A stretch of 21,340 bases of DNA from a virus: IMG/VR virus record IMGVR_UViG_3300021961_000744, positions 1 to 21,340 of that record; one strand, 5' to 3'. The translations under genes and the position numbers were made by a program. Of the stretch, positions 5,676 to 9,412 are shown piece after piece. A model generated the notes under the pieces. That model was not told the DNA's origin and did not search any database. It saw only the letters and a program-made list of their open reading frames with translations. How positions within the stretch are numbered: the stretch's first letter is position 1; the number at the start of each line of letters is the position of its first letter.

Positions 5676-5984
5676 ATGCTAGAGCTAACAGAAAACGCAG
5701 TTAAACGATTATCTTACATAGCAGATAAGGCAGGCACTCGTTATGTGAGATTAGATATTAAGGGTGGTGGATGTGCAGGTTTTAATTATGACTGGTCTAC
5801 TACAGATACAAGGGAAGACAAGGATCTATTGTTTGCTGATGTATTGTTAATATCAAGCGATTTAGAGTTTTACTTGTTAGGTACAGAATTAGATTGGGTA
5901 GAAGATACGTTTAAGGCCGAGTTTGTTATATCGAACCCTAATAGTAAAAGCAGTTGTGGCTGTGGGGAATCGTTTAGTATCTAG
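5676..5984 (+). CDS. A-type iron-sulfur carrier protein, IscA/HesB-like
   Basis: This 102-residue protein belongs to the A-type carriers, which bind Fe-S clusters or iron and pass them to apoproteins. The three invariant cysteines are present: C33 in GGGCAGF and C94 and C96 in SSCGCGESF. The N-terminal LTENAVKRLSYIAD helix and the LRLDIKGGG-like strand fit the family, and the length is normal. IscA-like genes occur repeatedly in marine T4-like phages and are viewed as auxiliary metabolic genes. It lies 44 bases after the lipoprotein gene with only a weak ribosome site; no earlier in-frame ATG exists. Confidence 0.92.
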   Translation: MLELTENAVKRLSYIADKAGTRYVRLDIKGGGCAGFNYDWSTTDTREDKDLLFADVLLISSDLEFYLLGTELDWVEDTFKAEFVISNPNSKSSCGCGESFSI

Positions 5985-7899: not shown

Positions 7900-7907
7900 T
7901 ATAAATA
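7900..7907 (+). promoter_or_regulatory. Late promoter TATAAATA
   Basis: Exact late box 77 bases before the next ATG. It is followed by a T-rich leader and by a duplicated ribosome site, AAAGGACTT at 7962-7970 and again at 7971-7979; the second copy is well spaced for the ATG at 7985. Confidence 0.75.
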
Positions 7908-7984
7908 ATATTATTAGTAATTTTATATTTTTTTTTCTTCCGAACATTGTCGAAAACTAACAAAGGACTTAAAGGACTTACACT

Positions 7985-8242
7985 ATGCCTAAAAAGCCTA
8001 AGAAGATTACTATATCGTCTTTAAAGAAAAAGGCACCCAAGGTACCAGACTTTACTTGTGTGTCTATTGATAATGTTATTGAGAAGTTGGAAAAACTTGT
8101 TGAAAAGAAAAAAGCGTTAGATAAAAAATCTTTAAAAGACTTAACAAAACGATTAGAAAAATTAAGAAGTGCTAATGAGAACCTACGAGAAAGTGGTATC
8201 TATTGGTACGAAAAACTAAAACTGTTATTAAAAAATAGATAG
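7985..8242 (+). CDS. Lysine-rich helical small protein
   Basis: The 85-residue protein is very basic at its N-terminus (MPKKPKK, LKKKAPK) and then forms a long amphipathic helix from about residue 28 to the end, with heptad-like Leu and Ile spacing (VIEKLEKLVEKKKALDKK and onward). A short coiled coil is likely. Such basic helical proteins could bind nucleic acid or scaffold other proteins, but no family is recognised. Expression is probably late, from the TATAAATA at 7900. Its stop codon overlaps the ribosome site of the downstream 25-codon gene, suggesting coupled translation. Confidence 0.65.
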   Translation: MPKKPKKITISSLKKKAPKVPDFTCVSIDNVIEKLEKLVEKKKALDKKSLKDLTKRLEKLRSANENLRESGIYWYEKLKLLLKNR

Positions 8243-8252
8243 GAGGTCTCCT

Positions 8253-8330
8253 ATGAATTATTATTTTACAGGTGCTCTTATAATATTGTTAATACTTTTT
8301 ACATTGATGGTTGCGCCTTATCCGTATTAA
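8253..8330 (+). CDS. 25-residue membrane micropeptide
   Basis: The ATG at 8253 opens 25 codons ending at TAA 8328-8330. The product is MNYYFTG, a hydrophobic core of Ala, Leu, Ile, Phe, Thr and Val, and a short tail APYPY: a single transmembrane segment. An unusually strong AGGAGG (8241-8246) is optimally spaced before the ATG and overlaps the stop of the upstream gene, so translation is very plausible despite the small size. Function is unknown; single-span phage peptides of this size can regulate membrane complexes or lysis. Confidence 0.6.
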   Translation: MNYYFTGALIILLILFTLMVAPYPY

Positions 8331-8333
8331 TAT
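8304..8333 (+). promoter_or_regulatory. Possible sigma70-type promoter for pstS
   Basis: TTGATG (8304-8309), an 18-base spacer and TAATAT (8328-8333) give a moderate sigma70 match that would start transcription just before the pstS leader hairpins. No TATAAATA box is seen here. In such AT-rich DNA a chance match is possible. Confidence 0.3.
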
Positions 8334-8352
8334 GAAATTTTTGTTACAATAG

Positions 8353-8420
8353 GGTTTCCTATGTTAAATACTTACGATAGTTATTAAACTATCAATCTCT
8401 AAAGTAAAACATAGGAAACC
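8353..8420 (+). promoter_or_regulatory. pstS leader with two nested inverted repeats covering the ribosome site
   Basis: A perfect 13-bp inverted repeat, GGTTTCCTATGTT at 8353-8365 and AACATAGGAAACC at 8408-8420, encloses a second perfect 7-bp hairpin, GATAGTT at 8376-8382 and AACTATC at 8387-8393 with loop ATTA. The 3' arm of the outer stem contains the pstS ribosome site (AGGA at 8413-8416) and ends 3 bases before the ATG. In RNA the structure would hide the ribosome site; in DNA the dyads could be operator sites. No known riboswitch is recognised. Confidence 0.6.
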
Positions 8421-8423
8421 TAA

Positions 8424-9362
8424 ATGAGAAAATTATTATTCAGTTTAATTATGATTTTGATGACAACTACATTATATGCAAGGGACCAAATATCAATTGT
8501 TGGTTCTTCAACCGTATTTCCATTTGCAACTGTCGTAGCAGAAAAAGTAGGTAAACAAGGTCTTAAAACACCTGTGATTGAATCTACTGGTACAGGTGGT
8601 GGTATGAAATTGTTTTGTAAAGGTGTTGGACCAAATACACCTGATATGACAAACGCAAGTCGAGCTATTAAACCAAAAGAAAGAGATATGTGTTTTAACA
8701 ATGGTGTTACAGATATTTCACAAGTCATTGTTGGTTTAGATGGTATTGCATTTATCCATTCAGCAGAAAACAATACAGTTAATTTTACAGTAGAACAATT
8801 ATGGCAGGCGTTATCTGAAAAAGGTAACAAACCTGAAAAATGGTCTGACATTGATCCAAGTTTACCAAACATTAAAATACAAGTATTAGTTCCACCACCA
8901 ACTTCAGGTACAAGGGATGCGTTTAATGAATTAGTAATGGCAAAAGGCTGTGCTAAAGAAGTTAAAGAGGCAAACAAAAAAGATTGTACTTTATTAAGAG
9001 AAGATGGTGCTGCTATTGAAGCAGGTGAAAATGATACTTTGATTATTAATAAAATAGTTGCTGATAAAAATAACTTTGGTATATTAGGATATTCTTACTA
9101 TGACAATAACAAAGACAAAGTAAGAGCAGCAACAATTAATGGTAAATCAATATCATTACAATCAATACAAGATGGTTCTTATCCAATAAGTCGACCATTA
9201 TTTTTTTATGTAAAAAATCAACACCGTGATGTAATACCTGGTATTGACCAATATGTAAAAGAGTTTACTTCTAAAAGAGCAGTAGGCAAAAGAGGTTACT
9301 TAACTGATATAGGTTTAGTACCTTTGGCTAATCCACAAGAAGCCATTTCTAAAGTAGAATAA
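8424..9362 (+). CDS. pstS: Phosphate-binding periplasmic protein PstS
   Basis: The 312-residue product is the high-affinity phosphate receptor of the Pst ABC transporter. A signal peptide spans residues 1-19 (MRKLL, hydrophobic core, cut after LYA). Phosphate-contact motifs are VGSSTVFPF (26-34), ESTGTGGG (53-60), NASR (77-80) and TSGTRD (160-165). The C-terminal GKRGYLTDIGLVPL and the NGVTDISQVIVGLDGIAF stretch follow the alphaproteobacterial form. Phage-borne pstS is known in marine myoviruses and is thought to keep phosphate uptake going in the infected host by using the host PstCAB. It stands alone, with no pstCAB or phoU nearby. The leader suggests separate control from the late genes. 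Confidence 0.95.
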   Translation: MRKLLFSLIMILMTTTLYARDQISIVGSSTVFPFATVVAEKVGKQGLKTPVIESTGTGGGMKLFCKGVGPNTPDMTNASRAIKPKERDMCFNNGVTDISQVIVGLDGIAFIHSAENNTVNFTVEQLWQALSEKGNKPEKWSDIDPSLPNIKIQVLVPPPTSGTRDAFNELVMAKGCAKEVKEANKKDCTLLREDGAAIEAGENDTLIINKIVADKNNFGILGYSYYDNNKDKVRAATINGKSISLQSIQDGSYPISRPLFFYVKNQHRDVIPGIDQYVKEFTSKRAVGKRGYLTDIGLVPLANPQEAISKVE

Positions 9363-9367
9363 AAAAA

Positions 9368-9385
9368 GGGCGCCTTTTGGCGCCC
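9368..9385 (-). terminator. Rho-independent terminator between convergent genes
   Basis: A perfect 7-bp GC stem GGGCGCC/GGCGCCC with loop TTTT. Read leftward it is followed by a run of 7 Ts, making a classical terminator for the leftward cassette. Read rightward it follows the pstS stop by 5 bases but lacks a T run, so it may still stop or stabilise pstS mRNA. Confidence 0.9.
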
Positions 9386-9412
9386 TCTAAACAAACAACA
9401 AAATAAAATCTA

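Follow-up and report, generated by a model that had tools for sequence, protein, structure and literature searches.

A nested inverted repeat overlapping the predicted promoter of a pelagiphage pstS gene, a candidate silencer of read-through RNA

How can a gene be translated if its ribosome-binding site lies in one arm of a perfect inverted repeat? The question is raised by pstS in the window analyzed here (the whole stretch of 21,340 nucleotides, positions 1 to 21,340 of IMG/VR virus record IMGVR_UViG_3300021961_000744), a T4-like tail/baseplate gene block with baseplate wedge and hub families. The pstS product was 66.5% identical to PstS of Pelagibacter phage Mosig EXVC030M, a member of the Kyanoviridae whose host is SAR11. 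A gene for Fe-S cluster biosynthesis (A-type carrier-like, PF01521) was also present amid the baseplate genes (5676-5984). The surroundings of pstS were as follows:

7900-7907, plus strand: TATAAATA, a T4-type late-promoter-like site (sequence match; putative promoter activity)
7985-8242, plus strand: 85-aa gene (open reading frame) 5' of pstS, on the same strand
8253-8330, plus strand: 25-codon small membrane-like open reading frame (MNYY..PYPY), conserved in 6 relatives, with its stop 23 nt before the 5' arm of the repeat
8424-9362, plus strand: pstS, encoding a phosphate-binding protein (PF12849, 312 aa)
9365-9388, no strand assigned: terminator hairpin GGGCGCC..GGCGCCC 3' of pstS, its T-run scored on the minus strand

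Thus pstS is located downstream of two same-strand open reading frames, and no same-strand terminator was found between 7700 and 9700. Six TATAAATA sites were present in the window, all on the plus strand and five no more than 30 nt from a gene start, a number by itself not above chance. Other genes of the window have such sites directly upstream, unlike pstS, and the site at 7900 is likely one source of RNA reading into it.

The inverted repeat that a sequence-only reading had described before pstS was confirmed in each of its parts, a 13-bp perfect outer repeat, a 7-bp perfect hairpin enclosed by it, and a ribosome site within the 3' outer arm, which ends 3 nt before the ATG at 8424:

8353-8365, plus strand: outer 5' arm GGTTTCCTATGTT (anti-Shine-Dalgarno strand), fully complementary to the 3' arm; promoter DNA, predicted to be in RNA by read-through only
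8376-8393, plus strand: inner hairpin GATAGTT-ATTA-AACTATC (stems 8376-8382 and 8387-8393), predicted 5' end of the own-promoter mRNA
8408-8420, plus strand: outer 3' arm AACATAGGAAACC, holding the Shine-Dalgarno sequence AGGA (8413-8416)

A G-U pair (8352/8421) extends the outer helix by one, and an additional 5-bp helix (8369-8373/8402-8406) lies between the outer and inner stems. The predicted RNA fold of 8330-8460 had an energy of -29.6 kcal/mol (z = -4.1), a stability reached by none of 200 shuffles. The leader was also unique among the genes of the window, as previously claimed: this was the sole perfect inverted repeat of at least 12 bp with arms within 150 nt, and no other of such kind was found. 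Markov-random 21-kb windows had a 13-bp repeat at this arm distance in 26 of 200 cases (13%), so that repeat length alone is not significant; the weight rests on the position of the repeat (on the Shine-Dalgarno sequence and against a promoter) and on the comparison with relatives.

The 5' arm overlaps a conserved promoter-like element, whose parts in the window are:

8332-8348, minus strand: Pho-box-like element of two half sites at 11-bp spacing, matching the pstS box of the SAR11 host as its reverse complement
8341-8346, plus strand: TTGTTA, -35-like hexamer, rigidly spaced from the -10 element in relatives
8363-8370, plus strand: GTTAAATA, -10 element (TTAAAT, 8364-8369) overlapping the 5' arm, kept in nearly all related pstS leaders

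About 40 related leaders shared the element (A/G)TTAAAnTTTTGTTA(C/A)-N15-GTTAAATA, from which a few deviated (e.g. L050); in the window, TTGTTA and TTAAAT are separated by 17 nt. The conserved element and its spacing predict that transcription starts near 8376, where the inner hairpin begins; with the -10 element inside the 5' arm, transcripts of this promoter would lack that arm. A scan with the sigma-70 consensus did not list the proposed promoter, and the case for it therefore rests on conservation.

Read in reverse complement, the upstream part of the phage promoter corresponds to the host box that precedes SAR11 pstS, TGTAACAAAASTTTAAC. With up to 2 mismatches, this box had 88 matches in 0.51 Mb of host pstS loci, all on the sense strand, and one in shuffled DNA. 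PhoB sites consist of half sites at 11-bp spacing. The two half sites at this spacing, upstream of the -10 element, were clear in relatives, the upstream one being degenerate in the window. The promoter is probably of host type and PhoB-controlled, judging from these resemblances, although the box is inverted relative to that of the host and differs from it in the window at 3 of 17 positions (0-2 in many relatives); predicted Pho boxes in phages have been described as unreliable and in need of binding tests (PMC10976474). In leader L034 the element was the exact reverse complement of the host box (17/17). The inverted orientation relative to the gene was found throughout the phage family, and the more distant phages L071 and L072 had the host orientation. 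No TTAAC variant of the box turned up in a pattern scan.

The same promoter element preceded other genes in L216, L217, L228, L231, L234, L236, L237, L239 and L240, encoding a metallophosphoesterase-like protein (N-terminus M(T/P)HYKSIFISDIHLG) or a small membrane-like protein. In some, the -10 element is followed at once by a strong hairpin. These genes may form a phage Pho regulon. L222, L224 and L225 retained the promoter with no pstS downstream, L222 and L224 with a strong hairpin after it and L225 with the 5' arm as well, and these are possibly remains after pstS loss.

Folding predictions differed sharply between long and short RNAs. The probability of AGGA being unpaired was 0.00 for RNAs starting at 7912, 8236, 8330 or 8353, and 0.34-0.38 for starts from 8360 to 8376 (0.34 from 8376), so that even in the short RNA the site is only about one-third unpaired. 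The longer read-through fold retained the outer helix, and the short RNA showed a 5'-terminal hairpin and weak structure only. Many relatives had a similar contrast between long and short RNAs.

We therefore consider it rather likely that the outer repeat is a read-through silencer, and that the short own-promoter RNA, lacking one arm, is translatable. Since the 5' arm is promoter DNA, it is present in RNA only when transcription enters from upstream. RNA entering from the upstream late structural genes would carry both arms, which would form a 13-14 bp helix, bury the Shine-Dalgarno sequence and leave pstS untranslated. RNA from the pstS promoter itself (the Pho-box-like element plus the -10 GTTAAATA inside the 5' arm) would start at about 8376 without the 5' arm, with its Shine-Dalgarno sequence much more accessible, and would begin with the inner hairpin, probably protecting its 5' end. 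PstS would then be made only upon firing of this presumably host-PhoB-activated promoter.

The OFF structure proposed by the sequence-only reading is thus upheld, by folding and comparison, for RNA starting upstream of 8353, but not for the own-promoter mRNA; a start downstream of 8365, which that reading had named as evidence against it, is what the promoter predicts. Nor would something have to open the structure, as had been supposed: with a start near 8376 it is bypassed. Opening by ribosomes on the short upstream frame was rejected, since the 25-codon open reading frame ends at 8330, 23 nt short of the 5' arm, and ribosomes should not reach it. The start region of this frame (8238-8255 in the window) reads AGGAGGTTTCCTATG in L002 and L003, just upstream of their small open reading frame, and repeats the GGTTTCCTATG of the pstS 5' arm (with one mismatch in the window); it could therefore also pair with the pstS Shine-Dalgarno sequence.

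The inner hairpin lies at or near the predicted +1. Many class I relatives (defined below) had a hairpin at the same position with other stems, and so did other genes with this promoter (L231, L236, L237, L240); class II leaders had none. Protection of the mRNA 5' end is its likeliest role. Bacterial mRNAs of the ompA type carry stabilizing stem-loops at their 5' ends. The phage leaders resemble them in having a stem-loop within a few nucleotides of the predicted 5' end, kept in position and changing in sequence.

Related pstS leaders were found first via the protein and then by pattern; one collection was selected with the promoter motif itself, and the protein-recovered set was not so selected. 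Repeating the profile scan with a different query brought up largely the same contigs, indicating that the set is near saturation in IMG/VR at this sensitivity. Initiation regions fell into two classes: class I, with the nearly constant block TCTCTAAAGTAAAACATAGGAAACCTAAATGAGA, and class II, with varied blocks such as TTAACAAGGAG. Class II 5' arms paired better with their own initiation regions than swapped arms did (-9.03 vs. -7.57 kcal/mol; 13/20000), and the same comparison gave 72/20000 for 16 representatives and 0/20000 for all leaders. The helix was built from different bases in different lineages (CTTGTT/AACAAG, CTGTGTT/AACACAG, ATTGTTAA/TTAACAAT and GGTTAA/TTAACC).

These lineage differences bear on whether the repeat acts as DNA, as an operator dyad bound by a dimeric regulator, an idea also raised in the sequence-only reading. 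The 5' arm does span the -10 region, a plausible site for a repressor. Between lineages, complementarity was conserved and arm sequence was not, the separation of the arms varied with the inner hairpin, and strong repeats followed the arrangement of the upstream gene (see below), which is not something an operator would require. The operator was rejected on the first of these grounds, and we give it a very small chance of being correct.

RNAalifold on 12 class I leaders did not recover the outer stem, any covarying pair or a conserved core. The outer stem was missed because indels displace the 5' arm and the 3' block of class I is nearly constant; with so little variation in the block, covariation is not demonstrable within this class. 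Stems lost without compensation, also named beforehand as adverse evidence, did occur: L048, L050, L204 and L207 had an unchanged 3' arm and no matching 5' arm. The TCTCTAAAGTAAAACATAGGAAACCTAAATGAGA block around the pstS start (8396-8430 in the window) was near-invariant across class I even in leaders lacking the upstream arm; it may serve as a binding site for a protein or S1, or mark a recombination joint.

The same data bear on a true RNA switch or thermosensor, with the whole leader in the functional mRNA and a ligand, a protein or temperature opening the Shine-Dalgarno helix. Such a device would fit the stable nested fold with its fully paired ribosome site, a near-invariant class I initiation block that could bind a protein, and the obvious reason for control of a gene like pstS. 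We nevertheless find it improbable: the 5' arm falls on the -10 of a promoter with rigid spacing, the inner hairpin changes freely in sequence and is absent in many relatives, and 13 perfect pairs, with an arm-to-arm energy of -21.7 kcal/mol at 37 °C, would be hard to open. The undescribed ligand switch suggested earlier found no support either, as a search of the window against Rfam matched no known RNA family and the class I alignment held no conserved aptamer-like core. RNA thermometers rely on weak, imperfect helices over the ribosome site that melt at physiological temperatures; the helix here is perfect over 13 bp, and a thermosensor is unlikely.

Helix strength was compared between arrangements of the upstream gene. 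For every 5' arm, pairing with its own initiation region was ranked against pairing with 223 other such regions of the same contigs, an own score within the best 5% being considered strong. Among 21 distinct leaders with a same-strand upstream gene that stops short of the -10 element, 11 reached the best 5%; with an upstream gene that is divergent or codes through the arm, none of 8 did. Helix strength differed between these arrangements (Mann-Whitney p of about 8e-4), a value to be read with the facts that the sequences are related rather than independent and that the grouping rule was set after the energies had been seen. Close relatives also contrasted, L058 (helix) with L056 (none) and L038 with L034. 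On the PstS tree, the helix group required at least 6 changes, and across 4 independent pairs differing in neighborhood the expected direction was seen in 3.2 on average and the opposite never, too few for significance. In Mosig EXVC030M the repeat is bulged and the gene upstream of pstS is divergent. In L034, L056, L057, L060, L204 and L207, a small conserved gene upstream of pstS ended in a lysine-rich tail (VKVLLKSKKKR*) encoded by the promoter/arm DNA, its stop codon being the TAA of the -10 element.

It could still be argued that function lies in the promoter, the inner hairpin and the conserved initiation region alone, and that the outer repeat is a functionless by-product of an AT-rich promoter spacer opposite that region. 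The frequency of such repeats in random windows is in keeping with this, as are the 10 of 21 same-strand leaders without a strong helix, its absence from all leaders of other arrangements, and a class I 3' block that stays conserved in leaders without the 5' arm. Own-versus-swapped pairing, the rank against 223 other initiation regions and the dependence on the upstream gene argue against it, and we regard it as unlikely, though deserving real weight. For the broader form of the read-through silencer we put the chances at about even, as one joint claim: that the leader is a gate on transcript origin, with a starvation-like promoter in the 5' arm, starvation-initiated RNA alone being translated and late read-through remaining silent, and that the hairpin has been gained and lost repeatedly, tracking upstream-gene arrangement.

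Hairpins hiding the Shine-Dalgarno sequence, with a late promoter in the 5' strand, are known for T4 e, soc, 49 and I-TevI (also segB and Aeh1 mobE); in e, soc, 49 and I-TevI, long transcripts hide the ribosome site and the 5' strand is missing from promoter-proximal ones (PMC3014915, PMC2988022). As in these four genes, pstS lies downstream of same-strand genes, and its Shine-Dalgarno sequence is predicted by folding to be paired in RNA from upstream promoters. In place of their promoter, a fixed-spacing promoter-like element (predicted start 8376) overlaps the 5' arm. Unlike in T4, the pstS promoter is a Pho-box-like element plus GTTAAATA and not the late TATAAATA, the gene encodes a host-derived phosphate-binding protein, and the late transcript would be the long one, opposite to the early/middle read-through of T4. 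As its promoter is not of the T4 late type, the pstS leader is not classed as a T4 late-promoter hairpin, though it is predicted to work like one.

Host PhoB control of pstS has been reported for cyanophage P-SSM2, as mentioned in a discussion in PMC10976474. Like that gene, the present one is a phage pstS with a predicted host phosphate-starvation promoter; unlike it, it belongs to SAR11 phages, with a box inverted relative to that of the host and a PhoB site that is a candidate by sequence. In the literature searched, no Shine-Dalgarno hairpin overlapping the promoter was found described for PhoB-controlled phage pstS of the P-SSM2 type, and no such leader in work on pelagiphage pstS regulation.

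If true, the read-through silencer would extend the T4 hairpin, known from genes for lysis, capsid and endonuclease functions, to a nutrient gene of host origin, and would place it in phages of the abundant SAR11 bacteria. An auxiliary metabolic gene would thereby stay under starvation control even downstream of late structural genes, and pstS transcripts that late read-through contributes to phage metatranscriptomes would be no sign of PstS protein.
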